31,182 nt of DNA, taken from positions 1 through 31,182 of the forward strand of contig NZ_CAMLJP010000079.1 of assembly GCF_946480385.1 (NCBI RefSeq), given 5' to 3'. The position numbers and the translations under genes were made by a program. The notes beneath the pieces were generated by a model that had not been told where the DNA came from, searched no databases, and saw nothing but the letters and a program-made list of their open reading frames with translations. Source of the DNA: an uncultured Azospirillum sp. (GTDB lineage: Bacteria; Pseudomonadota; Alphaproteobacteria; Azospirillales; Azospirillaceae). Every line of letters starts with the position of its first letter. Position 1 is the first letter of the stretch. Positions 10,832-29,156 of the stretch are shown in pieces.

Positions 10832-10873
10832 CCTCCCCACGCCAGCGATGCCCCACGGGCAACCGCACTGGCT

Positions 10874-12143: not shown

Positions 12144-12346
12144 GCTTCTTCCTCTTGGTTCTTGATCCAGCGCCGGAGCTGCTCGGGGTCGAATGTCCAG
12201 CGCCCGCCGAGCATGGCGGCACCGGGGATCTTCCCACCACAGGCGAGATGCTGGACGGTCCGGATCGACAGTCCGGTGATCTCGGCTGCCCTGGGTGTCT
12301 GGACGCGCTCGGGTTCGCCCACCCGCTTTCCCTGTGCCTTGGTCAC
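11990..12346 (-). CDS. xis: Excisionase-like helix-turn-helix protein
   Basis: A 118-residue product if it starts at the GTG at 12346, which has AGGAG upstream and overlaps the previous stop as GTGA. Residues 15-65 form a MerR/excisionase-type winged helix: VQTPRAAEITGLSIRTVQHLACGGKIPGAAMLGGRWTFDPEQLRRW (15-60), with the GxW wing motif. Such proteins bend att DNA and direct Int toward excision. The C-terminal 50 residues lie in DNA shared with int (11990-12143) and are basic and low in complexity, so they may be dispensable or the true end may be poorly constrained. Position immediately before int supports the role; a simple helix-turn-helix regulator is the alternative. Confidence 0.75.
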   Translation of the reverse strand: MTKAQGKRVGEPERVQTPRAAEITGLSIRTVQHLACGGKIPGAAMLGGRWTFDPEQLRRWIKNQEEEACQNAHRLPVTRTSTKSETLGISRSRSAASKYVKAYEQRIKRKPASAATGA

Positions 12347-12588
12347 GCCGGCTCCTGTTCGCTGAGGGTCATCATCCGGAGGAAGGCGGCCATGTCTCGG
12401 TCGACCAGGGCCTGCACGCCGCCATGCCGGCTCTCCGCCAGTTGCCGGTGCGCCTCGATCAGCCTCTCCCTGTTCTCCAGGCTCGGGTCCTGATCGAAGG
12501 CGAGAGCGGCCTCGCACTTCGCCTTGGCCGCCTCCACCCGCTCCGCGTCGCTAACCCGCCGGCGCGGGAAGGCGATGATCGTTCCCAT
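12343..12588 (-). CDS. Small prophage protein of unknown function
   Basis: An 81-residue product that I do not recognise. It is mostly helical and charged (RRVSDAERVEAAKAKCEAAL, then ENRERLIEAHRQLAESR), with no membrane segment. The ATG at 12588 overlaps the stop of the upstream gene by one base (TGATG), and its own stop overlaps the GTG of the excisionase-like gene as GTGA. It therefore sits in a translationally coupled chain and probably shares regulation with xis and int. A GTG at 12591 in the same frame is a less likely start. Confidence 0.7.
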   Translation of the reverse strand: MGTIIAFPRRRVSDAERVEAAKAKCEAALAFDQDPSLENRERLIEAHRQLAESRHGGVQALVDRDMAAFLRMMTLSEQEPA

Positions 12589-13061
12589 CACACAGGCTCC
12601 CCGCGCTCCAGGGCGCGTTCCAAGTCGGCGTACTCGCCGGGTTGGGCGATATCGCTATCGGGGGCGTAGCCGGAGACGATCCGAAGGCTGTCGGGCCGGT
12701 GGCGGAGCACCCACCACCAGAAGCGGAAATACAGCTCGCAATGGGCCTCCTCCCGGTCATCGGGGCTGAGTTCCATCCGGCGGGACCGCCAGCCATGCCA
12801 GAATGCGCGGCTGTGTGTCCTCCCAGGTTCACGGCTGTCAGGCATCTCGGCCAGCCGCCGTCCGGCAACCACGTGGGCCTCATCAAGGCGGGCAAGGTCG
12901 CACAGCGTGCGCACCGGCACCTTGATGCCGCGCTTCCACAGGGCGTCATAGCTCGCCAGCGTGGCCGTATGGTATGCGGGAGCCTTCGGATACGCCGGCA
13001 CCGTGTCCAGCGCGCCGATCACGGCATGCAGGAAACTCTGAGCCTCTTCAACCGTCTGCAT
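12588..13061 (-). CDS. Prophage protein of unknown function
   Basis: A 157-residue cytosolic product with no family that I recognise. Visible features: a helical N-terminus (VEEAQSFLHAVIGALDTV), a middle part VPVRTLCDLARLDEAHVVAGRRL, and an aromatic-rich segment HCELYFRFWWWVLRHRPDS at about 105-123. The ATG at 13061 overlaps the stop of the ParB-like gene by one base (TGATG), so it is translationally coupled to it. The open frame upstream to 13202 is out of register with any ribosome site and overlaps ParB-like coding sequence. Confidence 0.7.
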   Translation of the reverse strand: MQTVEEAQSFLHAVIGALDTVPAYPKAPAYHTATLASYDALWKRGIKVPVRTLCDLARLDEAHVVAGRRLAEMPDSREPGRTHSRAFWHGWRSRRMELSPDDREEAHCELYFRFWWWVLRHRPDSLRIVSGYAPDSDIAQPGEYADLERALERGEPV

Positions 13062-14023
13062 CACGCCACCGCCGGGCAGAGGCGTTTGGCGTCGGCGAGG
13101 CCCTTGTCGTAGGCCTTCACCAGCGAGGCGATCAGGGCGTCCTGCACCGACAGCCCGACCAGCTTCCGCATCTTGCTGGCCTGTTCGCACAGCACGGTGC
13201 AATCCGTGCCGGACAGCGCCTTGATCAGCCGCTCCTCGTCCAGCCGGTCACGGTACTGCACCACCAGCGTCACCACCGCCTCGATCACTGGGCCGCGGAG
13301 CTGGTCGGGCACTTCCCGATAGGCGCTCGCCAGGGCCGACAGGGCGCGCACCACCGGCCGCTCGCCATACTTGGCGATCAGCTTGCGGATGGTCGCCACC
13401 GACTGCGTATGCCGGGGCGGGAGTCGCTTGGAGGTGTTGCTGATGTGATAGGCGATCTCGATCCCCGACCGGGTGCAGACGTTGAGAACCTGCACCGCGT
13501 CCGGGTCACCGGCGATCAGCTTGCCCCGGAACATCTGGAGGGTGGTCATCGGCGTGCGGTCGGCGTTGACCGCGACGAAGACCTTGGCTTGCTCCTTCAC
13601 CTCCTCGGTGCGGATGATCCAGCAGGGCAGCTCATCGACCTGGGGGTGGAGCAGGGCGGCGGCGGCGCGGTGCTGGCCGTCGACCACGGCGAACAGGTCG
13701 CCGCCGATCTCCGTCACCGTCAGCGGCTGGCACTTCTCCCAGCGCCAGCGTTCGACCATCCGCTTGATCTGCGTCTTCGACTTGTCGGAGAGGTTCCGCT
13801 GATAGCGCGGGTCGATCCGCAGGGCAGCCTTCGGCAGCCAAGCGAAGACCGGCATCGGGCCGAGATCCCCGGAGGGTTCCAGGTCCCGGAAGGCCAGTTC
13901 CGTCACCCGGCCCGGCGCATCGTCGCGGGTTTCGACAACGGCGACCTCTTCCGGAGCGGCGGCGTTGCCGGAGACGCACTCGGCGATCTCCGTCAGCGAC
14001 CAGGGGGCGAGCATTCCGTCCAT
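13061..14023 (-). CDS. ParB-like nuclease-fold protein of prophage
   Basis: A 320-residue protein with a ParB/sulfiredoxin N-terminal fold at about 60-145: WLPKAALRIDPRYQRNLSD (63-80), QPLTVTEIGGDLFAVVDGQHRAAAAL with the DGQHR motif at 115-119, and the CWIIRTEEVKEQAKVFVAVNADR strand-helix. ParB folds of this kind bind CTP or act as nucleases in phages and plasmids. The C-terminal part is helical with no recognised DNA-binding domain and no ParA partner is nearby, so plasmid-style partition is unlikely. A role in phage DNA metabolism or regulation is an inference. The ATG at 14023 has GGGAGG at 8-base spacing. It is the sixth-from-last gene of the leftward operon, counting back from int. Confidence 0.78.
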   Translation of the reverse strand: MDGMLAPWSLTEIAECVSGNAAAPEEVAVVETRDDAPGRVTELAFRDLEPSGDLGPMPVFAWLPKAALRIDPRYQRNLSDKSKTQIKRMVERWRWEKCQPLTVTEIGGDLFAVVDGQHRAAAALLHPQVDELPCWIIRTEEVKEQAKVFVAVNADRTPMTTLQMFRGKLIAGDPDAVQVLNVCTRSGIEIAYHISNTSKRLPPRHTQSVATIRKLIAKYGERPVVRALSALASAYREVPDQLRGPVIEAVVTLVVQYRDRLDEERLIKALSGTDCTVLCEQASKMRKLVGLSVQDALIASLVKAYDKGLADAKRLCPAVA

Positions 14024-14045
14024 GTCATGGTCCTCCCTTCTCCGG

Positions 14046-15155
14046 TCAGGCTGCCGGCGGGCTGCGGCGCAGGCCGAGCAGCCGGTCCATCTCTTCATGC
14101 AGGGCCTGTTCGCATCCCGGCTCGAAGCGCTCCGTCAGGGTGGAGAAGTCCAGCCGTCGCAGGCTTTCCAGTTCCGCCTCCGACAGGCTCTCGGCCTTCT
14201 CGGGCAGCATCACGCGGGCGAGGGCTATCATGCTGGCGCCGTAGATGATGCGGGTGGCGCTATCCCGTGCCTCATCGGAGAAGGAGGGCAGCAGCGGCAC
14301 CAGCCGTTCCCGCAGCGGTGGGCCGTGCTTCGCCCGATCCTCGGCGGCCTTCTTTGCCTTCCGCTCCTCTTCCTGCTGGCGGTAGCGCTCCGACACTGCG
14401 GCGCGATGGGCTTCGACTGCGCTGCACAGCCGCTCGACGGCGCTGTCCGGCAAGTGGCCCAAATCGGCGAGGGCTGCACGTTCCTCTTCCGAAAGAATGG
14501 CGCCGGGAAGGAACTGATAGTCGCCCTTGTCGTCGTACCCGAAGGCGCAGGCGAATGAGCCGTAGGCGTCCAGCGAAGCGAGGATGGCACCCATCCGATC
14601 CGGCGCCCCGCTCTTGGCGGCACGGTAGGCCGCAGCCATGGCGAAGAGTTCGCCACCCTCGCCGAGCGTGAAGATGCGCAGCAGGTCGGCCGGCTTCTGA
14701 TCGACGATCATGTCCGGCTTGGCGGTCAGCGTGTCCCGCCATTCCGTATCGGTGCGGGGATGCTCGACCGCCGCCGGCTCCACCACGACGGCCAGACGGC
14801 CCAGAGCGATCAGGTCCGGCAGAAGCCCGTGGTCGAAGCCCTGGAGCGCGTCCTCGTCGCTCTCCAGCAGGCAGCGCATCTTCAACATGCGGTCGGCGTC
14901 CGTCAGCGCCGTGAAGCCGGTCACCCGGTCGCGCAGCACCCCTTCCAACTGGTCGGCCGCGCTGCCGAGGCTGGACGTGGCGTCCTCCTCGTCTCCACAG
15001 GGCAAATCGCCGGTGATCTTCCAGAACAGCGACGACACCGTCCACACCCGGCGCCAGTCCAGATAGGCCGCGCGCAGGACCGGAGAGATCGGCGACCCGA
15101 CGAAGGAGGCCGGCGCGTCTTCGGCGACGGGCTTGGAAATCGGCAGCAGGCTCAT
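14046..15155 (-). CDS. Large prophage protein of unknown function
   Basis: A 369-residue acidic protein with no family that I recognise. It is helical throughout, with a charged coiled stretch RYRQQEEERKAKKAAEDRAKHG at about 258-279 and a C-terminal acidic-leucine segment SLSEAELESLRRLDFSTL. There is no signal peptide or membrane segment. The ATG at 15155 overlaps the stop of the upstream gene as ATGA, and 22 bp separate its stop from the ParB-like start, so it belongs to the leftward operon. Its size and its neighbour suggest that it works with the ParB-like protein, but nothing in the sequence shows how. Confidence 0.75.
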   Translation of the reverse strand: MSLLPISKPVAEDAPASFVGSPISPVLRAAYLDWRRVWTVSSLFWKITGDLPCGDEEDATSSLGSAADQLEGVLRDRVTGFTALTDADRMLKMRCLLESDEDALQGFDHGLLPDLIALGRLAVVVEPAAVEHPRTDTEWRDTLTAKPDMIVDQKPADLLRIFTLGEGGELFAMAAAYRAAKSGAPDRMGAILASLDAYGSFACAFGYDDKGDYQFLPGAILSEEERAALADLGHLPDSAVERLCSAVEAHRAAVSERYRQQEEERKAKKAAEDRAKHGPPLRERLVPLLPSFSDEARDSATRIIYGASMIALARVMLPEKAESLSEAELESLRRLDFSTLTERFEPGCEQALHEEMDRLLGLRRSPPAA

Positions 15156-15400
15156 GCGGTCCTCCCGTTGAGAATGGCATCGACAGCCTCGTTACCGAGG
15201 CGCTGGCGGCAGTGGTCGGTGATCTGGTCGATGGCGTCGGCGCGGCCCTTGGGGTTGGCGAGCGCTAGCAGGCGGAACAGCCGGCGGACCGGCGGGCAGT
15301 CGGAGCGGCTGGCCTCGTGCAGCCAGAAAGGATCGGCCGGAGTTGCCAGCAGCATGTCGGCGGAATCGGCCTGGACCGGGGTGGGGGATATGTAGCTCAT
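15152..15400 (-). CDS. Small prophage protein of unknown function
   Basis: An 82-residue product, unrecognised. The N-terminal 20 residues are low in complexity (SYISPTPVQADSADMLLATP); the rest is helical and basic (SDCPPVRRLFRLLALANPKGRADAIDQI). Start and stop overlap the neighbours as ATGA on both sides, so translation is coupled to the ProQ-like gene upstream and the 369-residue gene downstream. It could be an accessory subunit of either. Confidence 0.7.
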   Translation of the reverse strand: MSYISPTPVQADSADMLLATPADPFWLHEASRSDCPPVRRLFRLLALANPKGRADAIDQITDHCRQRLGNEAVDAILNGRTA

Positions 15401-15915
15401 GCGATCCCCTCCTCCGGCTGGCGGACGGCTGCCTGCTCCGGGCTGACGATGCCGGCCGGGTTGCCGTCCAGATCGACGCGGATGGCGCCCGCGACCAGCG
15501 CGGCCCGGTATTTGGTGCCGAGGCAATAATCCCGGACGGCGCGCTCGATCCGGTTGCGGGACAACGGCAGCCCGTCCTCTCCGGTGACGCCGCGGGCGAT
15601 GAGATCGGCGGTGATGCCGACCTTCAGCGGGTGCTTCGGCGTTCTGGATTTCGGCGGGTTGAAGCAGGCCGGGAAGGCGGCGGCCAGGGCGCGGCGGTCG
15701 GCGCGCAGGCTGGTGCGGCGCATTCCTCCAGCGGCGGCATCGTCCTCCGCCACCATCCGCTCCAGTTCCGTCAGCATCAACCGCTGACGGTCCAGGGTCA
15801 TGCGGTTCCACAGGTAGGACATGCGGGCGGCGACGGCGAGGCGCCGGTCAGCATCGTCCGCCACAGGCGTTCCGGGGGTGTCATCCGCCAATGGCGGCGT
15901 GGTCAGCATCTTCAT
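15397..15915 (-). CDS. ProQ/FinO-domain RNA-binding protein, phage-encoded
   Basis: A 172-residue protein with a ProQ/FinO domain at about 72-162: RALAAAFPACFNPPKSRTPKHPLKVGI (75-101), TADLIARG, the LSRNRIERAVRDYCLGTKYRAAL helix pair (118-140) and the closing VDLDGNPAGIVSPEQA (147-162). ProQ and FinO proteins bind stem-loops in mRNAs and small RNAs and promote RNA pairing; FinO represses plasmid transfer through an antisense RNA. The N-terminal 70 residues are an extra helical region. The ATG at 15915 has GGAGG at 8-base spacing. The stop overlaps the next start as ATGA. A role in antisense control of phage genes is an inference. Confidence 0.82.
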   Translation of the reverse strand: MKMLTTPPLADDTPGTPVADDADRRLAVAARMSYLWNRMTLDRQRLMLTELERMVAEDDAAAGGMRRTSLRADRRALAAAFPACFNPPKSRTPKHPLKVGITADLIARGVTGEDGLPLSRNRIERAVRDYCLGTKYRAALVAGAIRVDLDGNPAGIVSPEQAAVRQPEEGIA

Positions 15916-15947
15916 CGGGAAGCCTCCGAAAAGGCCGCGGCCGGGCG

Positions 15948-16487
15948 TTACGCCGTCGGCTGCGCGGGGTCGATGGTGTCGGTCAGGTCGGCCAGGAGGT
16001 GGCCGTATCCGGTCTCCTCCAGCGTCTCGCGGATGGAGCGGATGGCGTCGGCGAGGCCATCCTTCATGGCCCGCGGCGTCCGGAAGTTGGCGCGGTCCTT
16101 CAGCAGGGCGTCGAGCTTGAGGGCGACGGCGGCCAGCAGCCCGGCGAAGCGGCCGTCCTGCACGGAAGCGGTTTCCGTCACGGCATCCTCCAGGGTGCTG
16201 GCGGCGATGCGTCCGGGCACGATCCCCGCTTCGGCGAGGGCGCTCTCCAGTTCGTAGAGGTCGGGCATGCCGGAGCCGGTGCGCAGCGCGGTGGTGACGG
16301 AGGCGAGGGCCTTCAGCACCATCGGCAGGGCCGACACCATGCCGGCCAGTTCGGTCCGGCGGGGGCCGGTGATCTCCACCAGTCCGAAGCCGTCGAAGGT
16401 GATGGAGCAGCGGTCGCCCTTGTGGATGGTGATCGGCCGGGGCGGGATCATGCCCGTCTGGCTGGCCGGTGGACTGGTGTCGATCAT
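15948..16487 (-). CDS. Prophage protein of unknown function
   Basis: A 179-residue product if the ATG at 16487 (AAGGTG at 8 bases) is used; the frame is open to another ATG at 16559 that lacks a ribosome site. The two starts both begin MIDT, so the 24-residue extension contains a partial duplication. The visible parts are ITIHKGDRCSITFDGFGLVEITGPRRTEL (residues 19-47, beta-rich) followed by helices with LAAVALKLDALLKDR and a tail DLTDTIDP. I do not recognise the family. It lies 32 bp upstream of the ProQ-like gene in the leftward operon. Confidence 0.68.
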   Translation of the reverse strand: MIDTSPPASQTGMIPPRPITIHKGDRCSITFDGFGLVEITGPRRTELAGMVSALPMVLKALASVTTALRTGSGMPDLYELESALAEAGIVPGRIAASTLEDAVTETASVQDGRFAGLLAAVALKLDALLKDRANFRTPRAMKDGLADAIRSIRETLEETGYGHLLADLTDTIDPAQPTA

Positions 16488-16590
16488 GGACGGGGCACCT
16501 TGCGGGCAAGGGGAGGGCGTCGCCGCGAGCAGGGCACGCGGCGCAGCGGTGTCGATCATCGTGAAAAGCGGTGGAGCGCCGGGCGGGCGG

Positions 16591-17190
16591 TCAGTGCGCC
16601 TTGCTGCCGGCCGGTGCGAACAGGGCGTCGTAATCCACGCCGAGCTTGGCGGCGACTTCCCGCACCACCTTGTCGTCCCAATGCTTCGCGAGGTCGCGGA
16701 CGATGCAGCGCGGAATGTTGTCGGCCGGGGTGTAGCCGAAGGAGTAAGCGCCGGGGAGGTTCATCGCCCTGGCCAGCCGGGACGCTTCGGCCATGGTGCG
16801 GGCGTTCACCAGAACGCCTTGAATGGGTTTGCCGTAGATGTCGCTGGCGCTGACATGCCATTCCCGGAACGGAAGGCCGGCAAGCTCCGCTTCGGTGGGG
16901 ACCGTGCCGGGCGGCAGTGGGTCGGTGGGTTCGTCCTCCTGCATCTGGGCGCATGCTTCGTCGAAAACGGCGTTCCAGATGCGGACGAACTCGGGATCCT
17001 TGAGCGGCTTACCCAGCGTCTGCGACAGGCGCAGTTCGGCGATGTCCACATATTCATCGGACAGCCAGCTGCCGCTGTCGACCCGGTCGAGTTTGGCGGC
17101 CAGCATCTGGGCGAAGAGGCGGAGTTCCGGCGAGAGGATGACGGTGTTGGAGCCGTTCAGGGCCGGCTCATGCCCGTCGTGAAGATCCAT
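16591..17190 (-). CDS. First gene of leftward operon, unknown function
   Basis: A 199-residue cytosolic acidic protein that I do not recognise. Segments visible: SPELRLFAQMLAAKLDRVDSG, DIAELRLSQTLGKPLKDPEFV, and a mixed alpha/beta C-terminal half with FREWHVSASDIYGKPIQGVLV and DNIPRCIVRDLAKHWDDKVVREVAAKLGVD. The ATG at 17190 has GGGAG at about 8 bases; the frame extending to 17289 crosses the probable promoter and is rejected. It is the first gene after the promoter at 17261-17289, so it would be expressed earliest and most strongly of the set. Confidence 0.7.
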   Translation of the reverse strand: MDLHDGHEPALNGSNTVILSPELRLFAQMLAAKLDRVDSGSWLSDEYVDIAELRLSQTLGKPLKDPEFVRIWNAVFDEACAQMQEDEPTDPLPPGTVPTEAELAGLPFREWHVSASDIYGKPIQGVLVNARTMAEASRLARAMNLPGAYSFGYTPADNIPRCIVRDLAKHWDDKVVREVAAKLGVDYDALFAPAGSKAH

Positions 17191-17260
17191 GTCCACACTC
17201 CCGATGATGGGGCGGCGACTCGAAGGTTGAGGGAGCGCCTGCCGGGTGAGGATGTGACGG

Positions 17261-17307
17261 ATATTGCAGGATGCAGCGCAATGCGTCAATACGCAAATCG
17301 CGCAATG
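17261..17307 (-). promoter_or_regulatory. Promoter and probable CI operator of leftward operon
   Basis: Reading leftward, TTGACG (plus 17284-17289), a 17-bp spacer, then CAATAT (plus 17261-17266). The -35 box lies inside the inverted repeat TGCGT-CAAT-ACGCA (17282-17295). The 9-mer CAATACGCA (17287-17295) recurs in the cI/cro intergenic region at 22650-22658, and GCGCAATG occurs twice here (17276-17283 and 17300-17307). This suggests control by CI or Cro. The region up to 17393 holds no gene. Confidence 0.55.
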
Positions 17308-17393
17308 AGTTTAGAAATTGCATTCAACGCATTTCGGCGATCTGCGGTACCGAGTCGGACGTGGGCGGGCGTTCGGACACCCGCCCAGTCAAC

Positions 17394-17810
17394 TCACGCT
17401 GCAATGCCGGACAGACGCTCTGCATCCTGGATCAGCGCCCACAGCAAACGGGTCCGTTCATCGCTGTAGGGCTGGGGGCCGAAGCGGTGTTCGGTGCCGT
17501 CCAGTTCGGCGGACAGGTTCCAGGCGAGCCGGAGCCGCACCGCCAAGCCGGCCGGAGTGCGAGGCACCAGGGCCGCGACGCGATCCTGTACGGCCGCATA
17601 GCGGGCGCACAGCACGTCGCGGGCTTCGTCGCTGTCGGCGCTGTAGAGGGCGGCGACCAGATCGTCCATCTCCCGGCCGAGCGCCAGCAGGGCGTCGTCA
17701 GGGTGGAGCGACGGCACGACGGACGGGGGAGGAAGGAGGGCGGCCGGCGCCACGCAAGCCGCCACCGTTCCCGCCAGGATGCCCCGGCGGGTCGAGATAC
17801 GGTGATGCAT
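17394..17810 (-). CDS. Tat-signal exported protein of unknown function
   Basis: A 138-residue product. Residues 1-30 look like a twin-arginine signal peptide: ISTRRGILAGTVAACVAPAALL. The mature part is helical and acidic (DDALLALGREMDDLVAALYSADSDEARDVL, then RTRLLWALIQDAERL). No family is recognised. The ATG at 17810 has GGAG nine bases upstream, lying in the end of the antirepressor gene; the two genes are 6 bp apart and probably co-transcribed. An exported protein here would be an unusual partner for an antirepressor. A lysogenic-conversion role is conceivable but unsupported. Confidence 0.68.
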   Translation of the reverse strand: MHHRISTRRGILAGTVAACVAPAALLPPPSVVPSLHPDDALLALGREMDDLVAALYSADSDEARDVLCARYAAVQDRVAALVPRTPAGLAVRLRLAWNLSAELDGTEHRFGPQPYSDERTRLLWALIQDAERLSGIAA

Positions 17811-17816
17811 GGGCGG

Positions 17817-18647
17817 TTACTCCATCGCGGGAGCGTGGTGGACGCTGGAACCGCCCAGGCCGTTGGGGCGGAGAAGGGGCAGGGTGGCCGGCGCACCGCC
17901 GGAACCGCTCAGCAGCTTCGCGAGCTTGGTGAGGCCCTTCGGGGTGACGAAGACCTGATAGACGGCTTTGTCGGACCCGTCCGGCCGTTCGACCGTGTCG
18001 GTCTTCATGTGCAGATAGCCGGCGTTGACCTTGTCCTGATAGGCCATGCGCTGGTTACCGCGCTTGTAGGTCCAGCCGTTGGTGTCGCACCACTTCATGA
18101 ACCAGTGCGGGGAAACCTGGAGAGCCTTGGCCGCCAGCGTCATATTGACGTTGCCGTCGGCGTTGGCGATCCGGTCGAAGGCTGCGACCACCGGCTTGGT
18201 GGCTTCGATCTCCGCCTTCTGCTGCTCGATGGTGTCTGCCTGATCGGCAGCCAGCCGCAACGCCTCGGAAAGGGTCTGCGGGATGGCAAACTGAGGCGCC
18301 ATCGCACCCCGCTCATAGGCGTCGAACCGCTCGATGATCTCGATAGTGATCTCCGTCGCCTCCGGTGTCTCTGACTTGGCGGTGATGAAGATCGCCTGCT
18401 TGCGGTTCAGGTAGTGCGCCTTGCCGGGACGGCCTCCCTTCGGCGAGGTTTCCGCCACCGTGGCGGAAACCCCCAGAGCGACTAGGGCGTCGGCGTGGCG
18501 CTCAATCAGGTTCCGGATCTTATGAGCGTCCGAAAAGCCCAGCCGTATCGCAAGGTCGAGATCGCGGATGCGCGGCTCGCCATTAACATCTTTCAGTGCC
18601 AAACCATTGCTATTGTCCCTGTCGGACGGCATATCTATGCAGTTCAT
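17817..18647 (-). CDS. Phage antirepressor with KilAC domain
   Basis: A 276-residue protein. The N-terminal module (about 25-112) resembles the DNA- or protein-binding heads of phage regulatory proteins, with RDLDLAIRLGFSDAHKIRNLIERH and HYLNRKQAIFITAKSETPEATE. Residues 140-165 form a coiled linker (DTIEQQKAEIEATKPVVAAFDRI), and the C-terminal KilAC/ANT domain (about 150-245) has NMTLAAKALQVSPHWFMKWCDTNGWTYKR and VYQVFVTPKGLTKLAKLL. KilAC proteins counteract phage repressors and favour lytic growth. The ATG at 18647 has GAGGT at 8 bases. The RHH gene 18 bp upstream reads the same way, and together they mirror arc-ant of phage P22. Confidence 0.88.
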   Translation of the reverse strand: MNCIDMPSDRDNSNGLALKDVNGEPRIRDLDLAIRLGFSDAHKIRNLIERHADALVALGVSATVAETSPKGGRPGKAHYLNRKQAIFITAKSETPEATEITIEIIERFDAYERGAMAPQFAIPQTLSEALRLAADQADTIEQQKAEIEATKPVVAAFDRIANADGNVNMTLAAKALQVSPHWFMKWCDTNGWTYKRGNQRMAYQDKVNAGYLHMKTDTVERPDGSDKAVYQVFVTPKGLTKLAKLLSGSGGAPATLPLLRPNGLGGSSVHHAPAME

Positions 18648-18665
18648 GACGTTGACCTCATGAAG

Positions 18666-18908
18666 TTAATCGGCCCCTGCCAGGGTCGGTTGAAACCGCA
18701 AGCGGCACTCTTGGTCCTGCCAGACCTCGGGTGCCGTTTGCATTTCTGGAGGAATATGTTGGAAACCTTCTCTCATCCCGATCTCAACCAGCCGTCGTAC
18801 TGCCTCGCTACGCGAGGGTATGGCTCGCTGTGCTCGTCTCCATTCATCCAGCAGTTCAATGAACGAAGGAGTGGTTCTCAGTTCGATTCGCTCAGTCCGT
18901 CTCTCCAT
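18666..18908 (-). CDS. Ribbon-helix-helix repressor, Arc-like
   Basis: An 80-residue Arc/MetJ-type DNA-binding protein. The strand RIELR (7-11) would enter the major groove, and two helices follow (SFIELLDEWRRAQRA and SRSEAVRRLVEIGM). The ATG at 18908 has GGAG nine bases upstream; an earlier in-frame ATG at 18926 lies in the operator. It is directly upstream of the antirepressor gene in the same direction. It is paralogous to the divergent gene at 19031: 25 of the first 45 residues are identical without gaps. By analogy with P22 Arc, it should repress its own promoter and hence antirepressor expression; this is inference. Confidence 0.85.
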   Translation of the reverse strand: MERRTERIELRTTPSFIELLDEWRRAQRAIPSRSEAVRRLVEIGMREGFQHIPPEMQTAPEVWQDQECRLRFQPTLAGAD

Positions 18909-18912
18909 GACC

Positions 18913-19000
18913 GCGTCTCCGTACATGCCGCGTGTCCGTACATTCGGCTATATCGGAGAGTGCGTCAAGTCTTTTGACGGAAGGTCCGCGTGTCCGTACA
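18913..19000. promoter_or_regulatory. Three 13-bp direct repeats, probable RHH operators
   Basis: GCGTCTCCGTACA at 18913-18925, GCGTGTCCGTACA at 18930-18942 and GCGTGTCCGTACA at 18988-19000. The first two are 17 bp apart start to start; the third lies 58 bp further, next to the divergent gene. The core TGTCCGTACA is near-palindromic (TGT...ACA). The repeats lie between two divergent paralogous RHH genes, each promoter having its own copies. Confidence 0.75.
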
Positions 19001-19030
19001 CTCCGGCCGATCTTTTTACGGAGTGACGCC

Positions 19031-19435
19031 ATGACCATGAAAACCGAGCGTTTCGAGATGCGGACATCCGCTGCGTTCGCACGGGTCATTGATGAATGGC
19101 GCAGAAAGCAAGACTTAATTCCAAGTCGATCAGACGCAGTCCGCTCACTTGTGACTCAGGGACTAATGTATGAGAACCTGCATATTGCGTTTGGAAAAAT
19201 AATACGCTGCGTTGCCGATGGGGCTGAGCAAGGAAAAGTTTCTAAAGACATCGCAGACGCTGTTGCTGAAATGATGAATCCCGTTGTCCGTGACCTTGAA
19301 GATTACAGAGACAGTCAGAGCGACGAACTTCGAGAAATGAAGGAGGTTTTTTCCGAAATTTCTCAGCTTAGAGAGGCCGATCCTGAAGGATTTGCAAAGA
19401 AATACCCAAATCTCTTGGCAAAAAAAGCACCATAG
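19031..19435 (+). CDS. Ribbon-helix-helix repressor, Mnt-like, with C-terminal coiled coil
   Basis: A 134-residue protein. Residues 5-45 are an RHH domain (strand RFEMR 7-11; helices AAFARVIDEWRRKQD and SRSDAVRSLVTQGL) paralogous to the gene at 18666-18908. Residues 60-134 are a long charged helix (ADAVAEMMNPVVRDLEDYRDSQSDELREMKEVFSEIS), probably a tetramerising coiled coil, which P22 Mnt also carries. The ATG at 19031 has GGAG at 8 bases; the frame open from 18932 crosses the operators. Its codons are AT-rich compared with the flanks. The inferred role is maintenance of lysogeny by repressing the arc-like/antirepressor promoter. Confidence 0.82.
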   Translation: MTMKTERFEMRTSAAFARVIDEWRRKQDLIPSRSDAVRSLVTQGLMYENLHIAFGKIIRCVADGAEQGKVSKDIADAVAEMMNPVVRDLEDYRDSQSDELREMKEVFSEISQLREADPEGFAKKYPNLLAKKAP

Positions 19436-19461
19436 AGGACATTTTATCAAGCTGATCAGGA

Positions 19462-19562
19462 AGCCCATTTGGGCTAAGGTGGAGCAATGCCGCTATAAGT
19501 GCGCTCCGATAGCGCGCTCCACCAATGAGAAAGGGCCGCTCTATCGGGCAGCCCTTTCTCAT
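19462..19562. terminator. Three consecutive hairpins between convergent genes
   Basis: AGCCCATTTGGGCT (19462-19475, 6-bp arms), then GGTGGAGC (19478-19485) paired with GCTCCACC (19516-19523), then ATGAGAAAGGGC (19525-19536) paired with GCCCTTTCTCAT (19551-19562). All arms are perfect. The block separates the Mnt-like gene (ends 19435) from the convergent ATPase gene (ends 19588). The outer hairpin is a plausible bidirectional terminator; the first two suggest a structured RNA. Confidence 0.55.
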
Positions 19563-19587
19563 GAATAACTTACCGGATTGTGTTTTT

Positions 19588-20835
19588 CTAAGAAGGTATA
19601 ATTGGCAGAAGAGGTTGATCAGGCTGAATTAAGAAGTACTTTGATTCTTTCCCAATCATTCCGCTCCTTATCCCCTTTATGATCACGTATGGCTGCATCA
19701 TTGGATCTCGAAATCTGTATCTATACTGACGCTCAGTCCCTCTTCTGATAAGTACATTCCCTCTTTTGTCGGAAATGAATTCTGTTAAGTGTCTCTGAAA
19801 ATGAGCATGTCTTTTCTTTTTTGATAAGATAGCGTTTAGCGGCTCAATCACGTCCGTTGGTGTAAAAAATCCACTATCATCTGTTCTTGCAAGGGCGCAA
19901 GCAAGGAGAACTTGAGAAAAGAAATTCTCTGCTTGGTTACTCTCTGTTGCCGCCCTATAATTGTCTTGAAATGACTGGTCTTCCTCCTCTATAAACCTTT
20001 CCATTGCGGCATCGACGTCATCCACATCAATGAGAATGCGTTGATTAGATGCGGCACTCTGAGCTGAAAATTTACCAAGCATTTGGGTAAAGTATGGAAG
20101 TCCGCGAGATAGTGTCACTATCATCCAGCGTGCATCGTTGCTGATTTTCATTGGAGTAAGCTTGAGCCGCTTATCGATAATCTCATTTAACTCTAGCCTA
20201 GACATCCTCTCAAGCTTGATTTGTGCAAGGGCCCGGCGAATAGATGCGTGGTCTGAGATCAGGCTGCTGACATCTTCTGAAACCCCTACAATTACAATTG
20301 TGGCATTGATTGAGTAATCGTGCAGAGATTTTATAACATTTGCCGTCAACTCCCGTGCATTCAAGTCAGTAAGCTTGTCAAATTCGTCAATTATTATGAT
20401 AGGTATAGCGTTTGGTTTCGTGCAAGAAAGCTCGCGTCTGATTATATCAGGGGTGAGGTGGTCATAATCCGATTTAACATCTATTAACTCAGATTTCCCA
20501 ATGTGATGCGCAGTGGTCTGTATTTCCTCTAGAGCTTTAAGCCAAAGGCTGGTGAAATCATCAGACGGATCAGCTTGCACACGAGCTGCGATGACGGTTT
20601 GAAGAGTCTTGTTATAACGACGCCAAAATACATTAGATATAGACGTTTTCCCCACTCCGCGCTCACCATATAATAGGACATGGCGGGATCGGTCTAATAC
20701 TGCTTCTAGAATTCTTCTCACTTCCGAAGCGCGGCCGGCAAACAACTCTTCTTCTGCTATTGGTGCACCAGAAAATAGAGAGGTTAGTTCGAAACTAAGC
20801 GCGAACCAATCATCAGCTGTAATAGGCTTATCCAT
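19588..20835 (-). CDS. ORC/Cdc6-like AAA ATPase, possible phage-defence or exclusion protein
   Basis: A 415-residue P-loop ATPase. Seen: LFAGRASEVRRILEAV (31-46), a domain entry often found before ORC/Cdc6 and STAND-like ATPases; Walker A GERGVGKT (57-64); Walker B IIIIDEFD (147-153); a sensor-1-like strand TIVIVGVSED (179-188); an SIRRAL motif with arginine-finger candidates Arg200/201; and a C-terminal helical, probably winged-helix region (320-380). There is no replication gene beside it and no nuclease domain in the protein. The coding sequence is AT-rich relative to the prophage, a sign of separate acquisition. The ATG at 20835 has AAGG upstream. It sits next to the Mnt-like gene, where P22 carries sieA. 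Function is not known. Confidence 0.75.
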   Translation of the reverse strand: MDKPITADDWFALSFELTSLFSGAPIAEEELFAGRASEVRRILEAVLDRSRHVLLYGERGVGKTSISNVFWRRYNKTLQTVIAARVQADPSDDFTSLWLKALEEIQTTAHHIGKSELIDVKSDYDHLTPDIIRRELSCTKPNAIPIIIIDEFDKLTDLNARELTANVIKSLHDYSINATIVIVGVSEDVSSLISDHASIRRALAQIKLERMSRLELNEIIDKRLKLTPMKISNDARWMIVTLSRGLPYFTQMLGKFSAQSAASNQRILIDVDDVDAAMERFIEEEDQSFQDNYRAATESNQAENFFSQVLLACALARTDDSGFFTPTDVIEPLNAILSKKKRHAHFQRHLTEFISDKRGNVLIRRGTERQYRYRFRDPMMQPYVIIKGIRSGMIGKESKYFLIQPDQPLLPIIPS

Positions 20836-21110
20836 GTAGCCGCAACCTTTAGTGGGGAGGGTGAGCAGAAAGCGGAAGGTTTTGAGTGCGACATCAAAGG
20901 CTTTGAGTAGGTATGGTCAACTACCCTCCAACGTGGATCGATGCAGCCCAATCATGCCTTGTCTTGATGCTCCCTTAGTTAGGCAGGTTAGGATAGAGAG
21001 GCATCCAATAATACGAATGCCTATCGCCATGTGCAATCGTGACGTGGCAGAGCAATCCTCATAAGTCGAGACTTGGCTTCAGCGTGGCGGTGCGACAATC
21101 AGGTCAAATG
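20836..21110. other. Intergenic region upstream of ATPase
   Basis: No convincing gene on either strand. It should contain the leftward ATPase promoter. Composition is intermediate, and I find no clear -35/-10 pair or repeat. Confidence 0.4.
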
Positions 21111-21136
21111 ACAAAGGGCCGCCCCGAGGCGACCCT
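21111..21136 (-). terminator. Terminator of the 116-residue gene
   Basis: Reading leftward, the hairpin AGGGTCGCC-TCGG-GGCGGCCCT (one internal mismatch) is followed by TTTGTCATTTG. It lies 37 bases after the stop at 21174 and ends the two-gene unknown operon before the ATPase promoter region. Confidence 0.65.
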
Positions 21137-21173
21137 AACAAACGCATATTCTATCAAAGTATCTGGAAGAAAA

Positions 21174-21524
21174 TTACGGTTCAACATCCTCAACTTCGAA
21201 GTCGTATCGCCGCCGTCCGCCTATGTCCTCATAGGTCCCGCACCACCAGATTTTGATCAGAACTCTTGTTCGGGTGCCGCTAAAATGCTGGTACATGACG
21301 TAGAGACCAGCTCGTTCGCGGATCAGGAAGGTGCCTTGGCTTGGATCGGTCCAGACTACATCGGCATTGTAACCGGGCTTTTCTTCAAATGAATTTTCAA
21401 TTTTATCTATTATGGAGCGTTCGAAGGATGGCAGATCATTCCGGCGCTCCTTGTAGGAGTCAGCGGCCTCAATATCACATACCGTCCGGAGGGGAGACGA
21501 GCCGAAAGGTAAGCGAGGCGGCAT
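21174..21524 (-). CDS. Unknown 116-residue protein, second gene of a pair
   Basis: I do not recognise this family. The N-terminal 20 residues are basic. Residues 30-116 form a compact alpha/beta pattern: helix PSFERSIIDKIENSF, then strands ADVVWTD, GTFLIRERAGLYVMYQHFSG, RVLIKIWWCG and YDFEVEDVEP. That single helix followed by a beta sheet would suit a small toxin or inhibitor, but no catalytic motif is visible. The ATG at 21524 lies 3 bases after the stop of the 59-residue gene, so the two are co-translated. Its terminator lies 37 bases downstream. Lower GC than the core phage genes suggests cargo. Confidence 0.6.
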   Translation of the reverse strand: MPPRLPFGSSPLRTVCDIEAADSYKERRNDLPSFERSIIDKIENSFEEKPGYNADVVWTDPSQGTFLIRERAGLYVMYQHFSGTRTRVLIKIWWCGTYEDIGGRRRYDFEVEDVEP

Positions 21525-21527
21525 AAG

Positions 21528-21707
21528 TCAGGGAGCCTTGCGAAGCGGCTTCCAGCCGGACTTGCCAACTTCCTTCGCGACACGCGCAATAACCTTGCTT
21601 GCACGGCGCTGTTGCTCCGGCGTCAATGTCTTGGGCGAAGGCATAACCTTGGGCGCGCCTGCTAACATCAAGGCGCCACCATGCGCGGACTTTGATTGGA
21701 ATTTCAT
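21528..21707 (-). CDS. Unknown 59-residue basic protein, first gene of a pair
   Basis: The reading frame starts at the ATG at 21707 and encodes a basic protein with a helical C-terminal half (LTPEQQRRASKVIARVAKEV) and a tail GKSGWKPLRKAP. There is no clear ribosome site. A 27-codon upstream frame ends in TGA overlapping this ATG and could couple translation. The same frame is also open 100 bases further upstream without an ATG. The 3-base gap to the 116-residue gene suggests an operon; an antitoxin or DNA-binding role is only a guess. Confidence 0.45.
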   Translation of the reverse strand: MKFQSKSAHGGALMLAGAPKVMPSPKTLTPEQQRRASKVIARVAKEVGKSGWKPLRKAP

Positions 21708-21853
21708 GAGATTAAGGCCGCTATCATGGTTGCTGCATATAGTGTGAACATCTTCTCTGTCGCCAGCGATGACCTTTTTAGGATCACTCCTTTGGGGTAG
21801 GCTGTCAACTTACAAGTGGTAATCGAGAGGGCGGCCAGTAGGTGTCGGCGGCT

Positions 21854-22600
21854 TCACATCCGTCGGGCAAACCACACGACTCGCCCGATGATGTTCACCT
21901 CGTCGGAGGTGCGCTCATAGCGGCCATGGCGCGGGTTGTCGGACGCGATGACGACCCGCGGCGGATCGCTGTTCGGCACGAACTCCAGCCGCTTCACCAC
22001 CACGCCGAAGCCGTCCCACAGGGCGAAGATGCCGGGCGGGGAGGGGAAGCGGTCCTCCAGGTGGACCATCACCCGGTCGCCGCTGACCAGCGTCGGCTCC
22101 ATGCTGTCGCCCTGGACGGGGATGATCCGGGCGGCCCCGTTGCCGATGCGCAGCTCCTGCCGGAGATAGTCCGGGGGGAACTCCCACAGGCCGGTGATCT
22201 TCTCCGTCTCGCTGTAACCGCCGCCGTCGCCGTTGGGCTGGTAGTCGAGCAGGGCCTCGCCCCCGGCGCCCATGCCGGCCCGCACGTCGATCTCAGGGAC
22301 CGGGATGGTGTCGTCGCTCTCGCCGGTCAGCCGCCGGTCAGCGGGCGGGGCAAGCGGCTCCGGTGGGGTCGAGGCGATGGCGGCCGGGCCTTGGCCCTCG
22401 CCGGTCAGCAACCAAGCGGCGGAGACGCCGAGAAGCGAGGCGTAGCGGTCGGCCACATCGGCGCGCAGGCCGCGCTCGCCGCTTTCATGCAGGGCATAGG
22501 TCGGCTGCGGCACGCCGTGGCTGGCGGCGAACTCCTTGGCGGTCCGATAGCCGGCCGCGGTGCGCGCGAGGCGCAGGCGCTGTGCAATGTCACGCTTCAT
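21854..22600 (-). CDS. cI: LexA/CI-like phage repressor (HTH plus S24 peptidase)
   Basis: A 248-residue repressor that should maintain lysogeny. The N-terminal XRE helix-turn-helix (about 3-65) includes QRLRLARTAAGYRTAKEFAASHGVPQPTYALHESGERGL (7-45) and ASLLGVSAAWLLTG. A Pro/Ala-rich linker (70-95) leads to a LexA-like S24 domain (about 155-240) with nucleophile Ser166 in VQGDSMEPTLVSGD and general-base Lys203 in GVVVKRLE. A GMGAGGEA segment at 109-116 is a possible self-cleavage loop, so RecA-triggered induction is plausible. It diverges from the Cro-like gene across 104 bp of repeat-rich DNA. The ATG at 22600 has an AGG nine bases upstream. Confidence 0.93.
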   Translation of the reverse strand: MKRDIAQRLRLARTAAGYRTAKEFAASHGVPQPTYALHESGERGLRADVADRYASLLGVSAAWLLTGEGQGPAAIASTPPEPLAPPADRRLTGESDDTIPVPEIDVRAGMGAGGEALLDYQPNGDGGGYSETEKITGLWEFPPDYLRQELRIGNGAARIIPVQGDSMEPTLVSGDRVMVHLEDRFPSPPGIFALWDGFGVVVKRLEFVPNSDPPRVVIASDNPRHGRYERTSDEVNIIGRVVWFARRM

Positions 22601-22616
22601 GACTGTGAGCCTAAAG

Positions 22617-22674
22617 GTAAGCGGGGCTTACGCAAGCAGCGATAAATTGCAATACGCATAGCGACGGGTTGACA
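22617..22674. promoter_or_regulatory. cI/cro operator region
   Basis: Between the divergent genes: inverted repeat GTAAGC-GGG-GCTTAC (22617-22631), the 9-mer CAATACGCA (22650-22658) shared with the leftward promoter at 17287, and a consensus -35 TTGACA (22669-22674) for the rightward cro gene. A matching -10 is not clear (CTCTAT at about 19-bp spacing). CI and Cro probably compete here. Confidence 0.6.
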
Positions 22675-22704
22675 GAAGAATTGCGTTAGGCCACTCTATG
22701 CTGC

Positions 22705-23070
22705 ATGAAAACCTTCATCGACATCATTGCCGAATGGCCGAGCGACCAAGCCTTTGCCGAGGACGCCGGGGTTACGGCGTCGCTGGTGGTGTGCTGGCGC
22801 CATCGAAACAGCGTGCCGGCCAAATGCTGGCGGAAGCTCGTGTGCGGTGCGGTGCTGCGCGATCTGCCGGTGACGCTGGAAGCTCTGGCGATTGCCGCCG
22901 AAGACCGGCCGAACTGGACCCGTCGCGCCAAGGGCGCTCGACGCTCGATCCGCAGGCCGCCCGCCCGCCGTGGGCGGAGAACGACGGCGGCGCCTCGGGG
23001 GACTGAAACCCAAGGCGCCGCGGTAGGTTCAATCGTGCCGGCGGCGGGTGCGAACCGTCCCGGCACATGA
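22705..23070 (+). CDS. Cro-like DNA-binding protein
   Basis: A 121-residue product. Residues 1-50 (MKTFIDIIAEWPSDQAFAED, then GVTASLVVCWRHRNSVPAKCWRKLV) match the small helix-turn-helix family (carph-isopro / YdaS-like) that often takes the cro position; WRHRNSVPAKCW is the diagnostic part. The C-terminal half is basic and rich in Arg/Pro/Ala (ARRSIRRPPARRGRRTTAAP) and probably disordered. The gene diverges from cI. The ATG at 22705 has no good ribosome site, and the transcript may be nearly leaderless. The inferred role is repression of cI and entry into lytic growth. Confidence 0.78.
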   Translation: MKTFIDIIAEWPSDQAFAEDAGVTASLVVCWRHRNSVPAKCWRKLVCGAVLRDLPVTLEALAIAAEDRPNWTRRAKGARRSIRRPPARRGRRTTAAPRGTETQGAAVGSIVPAAGANRPGT

Positions 23071-23189
23071 GGAAGGAGGATCGGGTGGGTGCCTTCCCAG
23101 GACAGATTTGCCGCGTCGCCCGATCTAGGGCAATGCGCGCGATGGTGGTGCGGCCGGTGCAAACGGCGCAGACCCGCGCACGCACGCGG

Positions 23190-23360
23190 TCAGTGGGCCT
23201 GCGGCCTGCGGGTTGCCCGCTCCGCCAGCACCTTCACGCGCCCCTTCAGCGCCAGCAGGTCGCGCCGCTCGCCGGCCGGCAGCAGTTCGGCCATCAGCGT
23301 CATGCGGGCCAGGACTTCCTCGGTGTGCTGGGTGAAGTCGGTGCCCAGGCTGTCGGTCAT
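23190..23360 (-). CDS. Small protein of unknown function, opposite to early genes
   Basis: A 56-residue frame from the ATG at 23360, which has GGAG nine bases upstream. The product is helical and charged (TQHTEEVLARMTLMAELLPAGERRDLLALKGRVKVLAERATRR), a plausible short coiled coil. It lies antiparallel to the rightward early operon. Plus-strand frames over the same DNA look less protein-like. No family is recognised. Confidence 0.5.
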   Translation of the reverse strand: MTDSLGTDFTQHTEEVLARMTLMAELLPAGERRDLLALKGRVKVLAERATRRPQAH

Positions 23361-23533
23361 CGTCGGTGTCTCCATCCCGGTTCGGCCGGTGCATCCGGCG
23401 GCTTCGAAAAAAGCGCCCGTCCGAAGACGGGCGAGGTTCCCAACGTCAACGATGAGGCATCCGCCTCTCCGTGCCCGAACCATGGCATGGGGAGTTGTGT
23501 CGGATGCATCACAACCTTGAGGTCAATCCGCCA

Positions 23534-23929
23534 ATGTCTGTGACGGATCAGGCACTCATCGACGAAGCACGGGAGTGGTTACGGGACGCCGGGGACGGCG
23601 CGCCGACCACCAAGGCGTCGCTGACCCGTGGGGCGAAGGAGCTGGGCATCAGCTTCAACCGCGCCTGGGCCATCTACTATGGCCGCGTCGAGCGGCTGTG
23701 GGCGTCCGAGTACCTGTCGATGAAGGCCCGAGCCGAAGCCGCCAAGGCCCGGAGGATCGCCCGACTGAAAGCCGAAATTGCCCGACTGGAGACCGTGGAT
23801 GCCGCTATCACCGCCCGCCTGGATGCTGCGGCTGTATCAAGCCTGGGTGCGGTGGCGGATCAACCGGCTGCGGCGGCGCCTGCTGAAGCAGGAGAACCGG
23901 AAGTGACCGGTCGGGGAGTCCGCACCTGA
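23534..23929 (+). CDS. Unknown early phage protein, possible DNA-binding
   Basis: A 131-residue product if started at the ATG at 23534; an in-frame ATG at 23504 with GGGAG upstream is an alternative. Residues 24-60 (TTKASLTRGAKELGISFNRAWAIYYGRVERLW) look like a helix-turn-helix, followed by a long basic helix (KARAEAAKARRIARLKAEIARLETV) and an Ala/Pro-rich tail. It overlaps the next start by one base (TGATG). The place before primase and helicase suggests a replication or regulatory role. Confidence 0.6.
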   Translation: MSVTDQALIDEAREWLRDAGDGAPTTKASLTRGAKELGISFNRAWAIYYGRVERLWASEYLSMKARAEAAKARRIARLKAEIARLETVDAAITARLDAAAVSSLGAVADQPAAAAPAEAGEPEVTGRGVRT

Positions 23930-24141
23930 TGCACATCCACCCCGTCGCCGATCTGCCGGTCGAGGCTGCGCCCGGCTCCGCGGCATTGAACGAGGCGCGC
24001 CTGCGCATCGTCGCCGACGCCTGCCGTCTCGACACGCCGGAGCAACGCAAGCTGCTGGTCACGGCGCTCTATGAGGACGGGATCCTGTCGATGGAGGAGA
24101 CGGCGGCCCTGTTCGACCGTCTCGGGCTGGCGGAGGCATGA
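23929..24141 (+). CDS. Small early phage protein of unknown function
   Basis: A 70-residue acidic product, unrecognised. The C-terminal part (TPEQRKLLVTALYEDGILSMEETAALFDRLGLAEA) looks like two short helices with a turn and may be a protein-interaction module. It is coupled to its neighbours through a one-base overlap upstream and ATGATG downstream at the primase start. Confidence 0.65.
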   Translation: MHIHPVADLPVEAAPGSAALNEARLRIVADACRLDTPEQRKLLVTALYEDGILSMEETAALFDRLGLAEA

Positions 24142-25121
24142 TGCGCGACCCCGCCGCTATCGAGCGCGCCCGATCCGTCCCGCTGTCCGAGGTCGCGGCC
24201 AAGCGCCTGCGGCTGGTCAAGGCCGGGCGCGAGTTCAAGGCCTGCTGCCCCTTTCATGACGAGAAGTCGCCGAGCTTCTTCATCAGCGACCGCAAGGGCT
24301 TTTTCCACTGCTTCGGCTGCGGGGCGCACGGCGATGTGATCGACCTGCTGCGCCGGCTGGACGGGCTGGACTTCGCCGCCGCGGTCGAGGCTCTGTCGGG
24401 CGAGCGCCCGGCGCTCCGCCGCAACACCGCCCTGGAGTTCGAGCGCCGCATGATGGCGGCCACCGAGGAATACACCGCCGCCGAGGGCAGGGGCTGGGAA
24501 CCGGATGAGGACGAGCGCGCCCGCATGGAGCATGCGCGCGCCATCTGGTTCAACGCCCGGCCCCTCGCCGGCACGGTCGCCGAGACCTATCTGCGCTGGC
24601 GCGGCATCCGCCTGCCGCTGCCGCCGACCCTGCGCTTCGCCCCGGCCCTGTGGCACGCCACCGCCCGGCGGGAGTTCCCGGCGCTGGTGGCGGCGATGCA
24701 GGACGGCGTCGGCACCATCACCGCGGTCCAGCGCATCTACCTGACGCCGGACGGGCGCGGGAAGCTGGACGTGAAGCCCCGCAAGAAGGGAAAGGGGCCG
24801 ATGCGCGACGGCGCCGTGCGGCTGGCGCGGCCGGGCAGGGTGCTGGGGCTGGCCGAGGGCATCGAGACGGCGCTGTCGGCCCGTCAGATCTACAGCCTGC
24901 CGGTCTGGTCGGCCAATGGCGCCGGCCGCATGCACAGCGTCGCCTTGCCGGACTGCGTCGAGCATGTGGTGGTGTTCGCCGATGCCGGGGAAACCGGCAT
25001 GGCCGCCGCCCAGCGGGCCGCCGACCTGTTCGCCGGCCGCGGGCTGCTGGTCGACATCGAGGCGCCGCTGGAAGGCGACTGGAACGACGCGCTGATGGCG
25101 CGCGGGGCGGTGGCGGCATGA
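24138..25121 (+). CDS. Phage primase: CHC2 zinc finger plus Toprim
   Basis: A 327-residue primase-like protein. The N-terminal CHC2 zinc finger (residues 33-66) has CCPFHDEKSPSFFISDRK and FFHCFGCGAHGDVIDLL with ligands Cys37, His40, Cys58 and Cys61. A helical linker follows. A Toprim-like domain (about 232-310) has GLAEGIETALSA with catalytic Glu240 and VVVFADAGETG with Asp282. The usual second Asp of the DxD motif is Gly284 here, so metal binding may be unusual. It synthesises primers or helps initiate phage replication with the helicase, whose ATG overlaps its stop as ATGA. The start is ATG at 24138 or 24141, both overlapping the previous stop. Confidence 0.88.
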   Translation: MMRDPAAIERARSVPLSEVAAKRLRLVKAGREFKACCPFHDEKSPSFFISDRKGFFHCFGCGAHGDVIDLLRRLDGLDFAAAVEALSGERPALRRNTALEFERRMMAATEEYTAAEGRGWEPDEDERARMEHARAIWFNARPLAGTVAETYLRWRGIRLPLPPTLRFAPALWHATARREFPALVAAMQDGVGTITAVQRIYLTPDGRGKLDVKPRKKGKGPMRDGAVRLARPGRVLGLAEGIETALSARQIYSLPVWSANGAGRMHSVALPDCVEHVVVFADAGETGMAAAQRAADLFAGRGLLVDIEAPLEGDWNDALMARGAVAA

Positions 25122-29072: not shown

Positions 29073-29094
29073 AACGCAATCTCCTACGCGTCGG

Positions 29095-29147: not shown

Positions 29148-29156
29148 CGTCACGGC

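Follow-up and report, generated by a model that had tools for sequence, protein, structure and literature searches.

Genes and control region of the locus

The window, i.e., the whole stretch of DNA analysed here (31,182 bases), comes from an Azospirillum-like genome and holds the left part of a prophage. Its features are collected in Table 1. At the centre of this study are three genes: those of two putative repressors, RHH1 and RHH2, and that of a predicted antirepressor, ANT. RHH1 and ANT are co-directional and separated by 18 bp, and RHH2 diverges from them across a gap of 122 bp (18909-19030, counted from the second possible start of RHH1). All three genes lie where the original prediction, made from the letters of the DNA, had placed them in what it called an immI-like layout.

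The KilAC domain of ANT covers residues 145-247 (PF03374, E=1.1e-26) and scores 93.7 bits against a curated cut-off of 25.3, while residues 44-112 are weakly Rha-like (Phage_pRha, 7.8e-6, below cut-off). It aligns with P1 Ant1 along 94-96% of its length as the query, at an identity of about 27% (E about 2e-9 to 2e-8). ANT is thus predicted to be an antirepressor of the P1 Ant1/KilAC type and a full-length relative of Ant1. At the junction of RHH1 and ANT an inverted repeat can form a hairpin over the ANT start codon. Its stem is the same in the closest related prophage found (locus L001; see below), with 18 of 18 bases identical, and the folds reach -8.1 kcal/mol in the window and -9.4 kcal/mol in L001 (both for whole folds, calculated without a shuffle control). 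Translation of ANT might possibly be coupled to that of RHH1 via this start-codon hairpin.

RHH1 and RHH2 are paralogues, as had been claimed: 27 of 52 residues (52%) are identical (E=2e-16). Their fold is less easily read. RHH1 matches PF01402 below the cut-off (E=0.047; 14.1 bits vs 20.5), and a Pfam search of RHH2 returned no match. Within their family PF01402 matches 3 of 15 members at E up to 0.1 (best 1.1e-4), and the top PDB match of the family profile is the RHH domain of NikR, in register, at E=0.089. Structure prediction, which had been proposed as a check, gave a mixed answer for RHH2: the AlphaFold2 monomer has helices at residues 14-25, 33-66 and 72-116, which include the two RHH helices and bear out the helical C-terminal tail, but it lacks a strand, and Foldseek returned no significant match to this model and no RHH protein. 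This evidence, weak but consistent, suggests that both proteins carry the RHH fold.

Between RHH1 and RHH2 lie three near-identical operator-like sites, GCGTSTCCGTACA, which are the only ones in the window within two mismatches. They are copies of an 18-bp repeat, CCGCGTSTCCGTACAYKC, with a 13-mer core, GCGTGTCCGTACA, that at up to 2 mismatches is likewise confined to these three places in 31,182 bases (at up to 3 mismatches it occurs 13 times vs 8.8 expected). The best repeat of the control region was reached by 0 of 200 dinucleotide shuffles, and in the inner core, TGTCCGTACA, 8 of the 10 positions are palindromic. The sigma-70-like promoter of RHH2 is the only one found in 18600-19100, where shuffles average 0.2; over 10800-24500 the scan found 4 vs 2.4 in shuffles. 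The possible leftward promoter of RHH1-ANT has its -35 back to back with that of the rightward promoter; it was not reported by the promoter scans and has a poor -10 (2/6).

Replication genes lie to the right of the CI-like repressor, which is of the LexA type predicted for 21.8 kb and carries, besides its S24 domain, a V-R-A-G-M site (read from sequence) that we take to be lambda-like. Judged by codon-position GC, every likely gene from RHH1 (18.9 kb) down to the integrase (11.0 kb) is on the minus strand, and RHH1-ANT may head a long leftward operon (11055-18926, minus strand). The ATPase block between RHH2 and CI gave weak matches only in PADLOC; L001 has other genes at this place, which marks it as a cargo hotspot, possibly for defence.

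Table 1. Features of the window, with window coordinates
Feature	Position	Strand	Remarks
tRNA-Ser	10874-10966		adjoins prophage integrase
Integrase	11055-12143	-	adjoins tRNA-Ser
tRNA-Gly (ARAGORN call)	14570-14664	-	inside likely gene 14046-15155; probably spurious
ANT, predicted antirepressor, 276 aa	17817-18647	-	PF03374 KilAC; phrog_63 anti-repressor Ant 1.2e-44
Inverted repeat at RHH1-ANT junction	18643-18664	-	hairpin covers ANT start codon, just past RHH1 stop
RHH1, Arc-position putative repressor, 86 aa	18666-18926	-	first gene before ANT; alternative ATG start 18908
Operator-like copy 1	18911-18928		overlaps RHH1 start
Operator-like copy 2	18928-18945		over -10 position of possible leftward promoter
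Possible -35 of leftward RHH1-ANT promoter, TTGACG	18963-18968	-	read from sequence
Sigma-70-like promoter for RHH2, TTGACG-17-TACACT	18974-19002	+	9/12 matches
Operator-like copy 3	18986-19003		over -10 of rightward promoter
RHH2, Mnt-position putative repressor, 134 aa	19031-19435	+	diverges from RHH1-ANT; long helical C-terminal tail (predicted)
Low-GC block	~19.0-21.5 kb		RHH2 inside
ATPase, AAA/nSTAND1-like, low-GC	19588-20835	-	PF20703 1.1e-11; phrog_6841 1.6e-45; between RHH2 and CI
CI-like S24 (LexA-type) main repressor	21854-22600	-	presumed ANT target; PF00717 2.4e-10; phrog_4 3.1e-37
Fic/Doc-type protein	within 28487-29554	-	PF02661 1.2e-12; near right end of window
TacA1-type antitoxin	within 28487-29554	-	PF08681 6.1e-22; near right end of window

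Related loci and known systems

The one locus returned by a search of genome contigs with the RHH1 and RHH2 sequences was L001, from Azospirillum sp. 412522. The same sequences found nothing in viral contigs, RHH1 had no match in annotated phages, and a search of plasmid DNA yielded fragments in 3 records, which amounted to 1-4% of the query. The L001 prophage has the same layout and the same operator sites (its copy 3 is TGTACGTACA, a perfect palindrome), and its integrase adjoins a tRNA-Ser(gct), as in the window; the integrase and its flanking genes look, by eye, like those of the window. The prophage runs on into terminase-, portal- and tape-measure-like open reading frames (named by eye from their translations, in a part of the prophage before which the window ends), and we dropped a reading as a phage satellite for this reason.

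Between the two prophages, protein identity is 95% for ANT, 96.5% for RHH1 and 97% for CI vs 49% for RHH2, and neither the ATPase nor the 116-aa ORF of the window had a match in the 12.4 kb that L001 spans. At the DNA level, RHH1 is 96% identical, operators 1-2 are 95% and operator 3 is 94% identical; past operator 3 the figures are 59% for the RHH2 leader, 74% for the RHH part and 50% for the C-terminal part. From this profile we conclude that RHH2 is represented in L001 by a different allele, which diverges right after operator 3 and whose putative operator-reading half is better kept. L001 also encodes (3547-4284, minus strand) a second protein whose N-terminal part is ANT-like (37% over 149 residues); no such protein was seen at the corresponding place of the window.

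A third relative of RHH2 (P0010) is known as a protein alone. In genome G012 a solo RHH protein (locus L183, 9975-10541) is 56% identical to RHH2 over 48 residues and has the same residues, R-E-R, at the predicted contact positions (see below). Upstream of the gene, an exact GCGTGTCCGTACA stands 312 bases and ATTTGTCCGTACA 74 bases from the start. Alongside is a homologue of CI, 52% identical over 65 residues, and the surrounding 11.6 kb gave no match to an antirepressor. The case appears to tie an RHH protein to an operator-like site, and falls short of proving binding. The locus may be what is left of a switch after the loss of arc and ant.

P22 immI is a textbook switch of P22-like phages, and the layout in the window resembles it. 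In both, a divergent RHH gene is followed by co-directional RHH and antirepressor genes, the two repressors are paralogous (Arc and Mnt are 47.5% identical over 40 residues), and the divergent repressor is the longer one (P22 Mnt has 83 residues, Arc 53). Accessory genes adjoin the gene in mnt position in both, going by excerpts of PMC2629481. The main repressor is cleavable in both as well: the cleavable CI had been taken as a mark that sets this locus apart, and the available part of PMC11016777 describes P22 C2 as itself subject to RecA-induced autoproteolysis.

The differences concern descent and detail. RHH1 and RHH2 fall in a clade apart from Arc and Mnt (support 100/99; see below), gave no match to PF03869, reached a best E of 0.05 against Mnt or Arc in phmmer (in a set of 4 proteins), and their family has a profile-profile probability of 7% against Arc/Mnt; all RHH domains may still share a distant ancestor. 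ANT compared with P22 Ant gave a 9-residue BLASTP match (E=0.63, same set size) and no phmmer hit. The proteins are, as predicted, not obvious P22 homologues. The 18-bp gap between RHH1 and ANT contrasts with the 68-bp arc-ant gap that holds sar, one type of operator serves both promoters whereas P22 is annotated with separate Arc and Mnt operators, and the switch lies 2.4 kb from CI whereas that of P22 is in the late operon. Variation as such is expected, since the 'ant morons' of P22-like phages are highly mosaic, with ten types in sixteen genomes (PMC2629481, in part). On the evidence of sequence, the switch of the window is not P22 immI by descent: its repressors and antirepressor fail the homology tests and the sar-holding gap is missing.

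What the locus appears to join to P22-style control is a P1-style antirepressor: the Ant1/Ant2 proteins of P1 immI are the closest functionally characterised relatives of ANT that we found. P1 immI is under the control of the c4 antisense RNA, and Rfam includes a C4 family. A search of 17300-23000 against Rfam at E up to 1 gave no match, to be read with the caveat that sar may be absent from Rfam and that an RNA inside a coding region would escape a comparison of gaps. Two further arrangements come close. The Erwinia phage Midgardsormr38 has a divergent RHH pair first, in the order Arc / Arc - antirepressor - KilAC antirepressor, and one of its antirepressors matches the KilAC-type profile; its RHH proteins, unlike those of the window, are Arc-type, and it has an extra antirepressor gene. 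In Komagataeibacter phages phiKX1 and phiKX2 the antirepressor is 43-47% identical to ANT and a divergent RHH_1-type gene is present, but an RHH gene in Arc position was not detected.

Recurrence of the layout and predicted base-reading residues

To learn how common the layout is, we searched an antirepressor profile against 82 genomes of the order of the L001 host (60 places in 35 genomes), 385 alphaproteobacterial genomes (11 matched at E up to 1e-20) and IMG/VR (at least 125 loci confirmed, 80 of them kept). The frames surveyed are a part of the places found, with some duplicate loci left out by hand. Among 154 antirepressor frames, 17 had RHH genes of both kinds upstream, same-strand and divergent; 30 had the divergent gene alone (within 450 bp in 15), 2 the same-strand gene alone and 105 neither. 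Counting identical frames once (10 repeats dropped) leaves 16, 29, 2 and 97 of 144. Detection used two RHH profiles built from the first loci found, so divergent RHH types would be missed. The full layout thus occurs in 16 of 144 distinct frames, the window included, although the assignment of one, L093, depends on a hit of 11 bits. Midgardsormr38 (L065) was counted among the same-strand-only frames since the divergent Arc gene of this phage is farther away than the 1,300-bp cut, and L023, outside the 154, has the layout with a Rha-like protein (antirepressor profile score 19 bits).

The original prediction was right about the arrangement and read it well, and the genome search that it had suggested shows the layout to be neither unique nor as unusual as first thought, with the annotated Erwinia phage carrying a similar cluster. 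We found no earlier description of an RHH_1-type pair before a KilAC antirepressor, or of shared reading residues in such pairs, among the titles and starts of abstracts listed, a body of literature in which few subscription journals are covered.

Some loci depart from the pattern. In one (L089, 599-2226) a row of one RHH_1-type and two Arc-type hits is divergent from the antirepressor, which brings both RHH types into one locus, though not as a divergent pair. In genome G637 (contig C76, 42449-42868) a 234-residue open frame has two Arc domains and is a possible fused repressor pair.

We built a tree from 19 pairs (the 16 plus those of P22, the Erwinia phage and L023), i.e., 38 short rows, in which Arc-type (24 rows) and RHH_1-type sequences (14 rows) separate at a support of 100/99, with a warning from the tool about few columns and long branches. 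Both roles, Arc position and Mnt position, occur in each clade, and the role label needs 12 changes on the tree. The suggestion of a convergent form fits this picture of RHH_1-type and Arc-type pairs in two separate clades. None of the 19 pairs was of mixed type, and shuffled pairings equalled the likeness of the own partners in 0 of 20,000 trials for all pairs, 302 of 20,000 for 6 RHH_1-type and 4 of 20,000 for 12 Arc-type pairs; these and the permutation counts below treat loci as independent and are inflated by kinship among them.

In Arc, the beta-strand residues Q9, N11 and R13 read DNA. The same contact spacing is found in AmrZ (K18, V20, R22; PMC3325190, in part). According to our alignment, RHH1 and RHH2 both have R-E-R at the predicted contact positions. 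Over 18 loci (L001 excluded as a near copy of the window; positions assigned by hand), partners agree at 36 of 54 contact sites, which 0 of 50,000 within-type permutations equalled. Column by column, on an automatic alignment, the middle contact stands out: it is identical in 9 of the 12 Arc-type loci vs 1.5 expected, the largest excess of any column, and the 9 agreeing pairs carry 8 different residues there. For the 6 RHH_1-type loci the middle residue is identical in 3 vs 0.5 expected and differs in the other 3; its p=0.008 is the lowest of any column (columns 17, 22 and 46 have p 0.03-0.04) and alone would fail a correction for all columns.

For replication, we searched Pfam Arc in 398 Pseudomonadota genomes (117 matches in 86 genomes) and examined 60 stretches, leaving out the 16 strongest matches, taken as AmrZ-like chromosomal genes, most of the weakest and a few others. 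This gave 11 further divergent pairs, although some of the proteins are related to those of the first set; in 3 cases the locus also had a hit to the KilAC-type profile. The middle contact was identical in 5 of 11 vs 1.0 expected (51 of 100,000 permutations) and the first in 7 of 11 vs 3.1 expected (404 of 100,000), and these were the two columns with the largest excess. Since 6 of the 11 pairs disagree at the middle residue, partner agreement is a tendency and no law. In 10 of the 19 control regions, P22 not among them, duplicated repeats exceeded those of shuffles at p up to 0.05; identity of the contact triad was not significantly associated with such repeats (6/9 vs 4/10, Fisher p=0.37).

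The new observation is that pair partners agree at predicted base-reading residues far beyond chance. Both members of a pair thus seem tied to one and the same DNA site, a point that the original prediction did not make. A broader statement, which we put forward as an evenly balanced proposition, is that divergent RHH pairs guarding antirepressors form a module that recurs on at least two separate RHH clades, and that selection keeps the two partners reading the same operator, with changes in base-reading residues tending to be matched. P22 Arc/Mnt, with partly different residues and separate operators, would then be the less typical case.

Proposed working and alternatives

We read the gene order, the paralogy, the operator repeats with their conservation in L001 and the identical R-E-R residues as those of an immI-like antirepressor switch. 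As the best explanation of the whole, it is likely that the switch is part of the immunity region of a temperate tailed phage, which lies dormant in a soil bacterium related to Azospirillum, and that two RHH repressors keep ANT silent in this switch. For binding, repression, an action of ANT on CI and the timing of each repressor, we infer the working mostly by analogy with P22 immI as described in the available parts of PMC11016777, PMC2629481 and PMC7549136. In the lysogen, RHH2 would sit on TGTCCGTACA at both divergent promoters and ANT would be silenced. On entry into a cell without these repressors, the leftward transcript would be made and with it ANT, which would block a repressor of the CI class and so favour lytic growth; the hairpin over the ANT start would probably couple its translation to that of RHH1. 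RHH1, binding the same TGTCCGTACA operators after infection, would finally close its own operon.

The same repressors could have a wider charge. RHH1 and RHH2 might control the whole leftward early operon down to the integrase, much like lambda PL, with ANT as one cargo gene among others, a reading that we consider possible, if less than probable. The run of likely genes on the minus strand alone between 18.9 and 11.0 kb fits it, as do a 138-aa ORF that starts 6 bases past the end of ANT and a scan that found no minus-strand terminator-like sites between 18.6 and 11 kb, although that scan, with 5 sites in total vs 9.6 in shuffles, may miss real ones. Against it, the combination of an RHH gene, an antirepressor gene and a divergent RHH gene is seen at 16 distinct loci, a comparison of these genes alone.

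The target of ANT may also differ from the one we presume. Trans-acting antirepressors are known from the Gifsy prophages, and CI, with its S24 domain and V-R-A-G-M site, may not need an antirepressor for SOS induction; ANT could then act on the repressors of other prophages or of a superinfecting phage and not on its own CI. We regard this as unlikely: ANT and CI are both conserved between the two prophages, and P22, too, pairs a cleavable repressor with an antirepressor (PMC11016777, in part). Least plausible to us, and quite improbable, is that RHH2 is a private regulator of the swapped low-GC cargo (the ATPase etc.) and shares its operators with RHH1 by descent only. RHH2 does lie inside the low-GC block and differs between the prophages along with the cargo, but the ATPase gene is on the opposite strand and convergent with it, RHH2 keeps R-E-R, the operator is the same at both promoters, and a divergent RHH gene recurs at the antirepressor loci of other phages (a comparison of RHH genes, not of cargo).

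With the immI-like switch as the preferred reading, the P22-type layout of two repressors is now seen outside the P22-like lineage, where it is built from another RHH clade and combined with a P1-type antirepressor. It comes with a testable rule, namely that pair partners tend to share base-reading residues. If this is true, operator sharing would be predictable from sequence, divergent pairs would offer a natural set for studying the co-evolution of two transcription factors on one site, and the comparison of the two prophages would suggest how a prophage may swap one repressor and its cargo with immunity retained.
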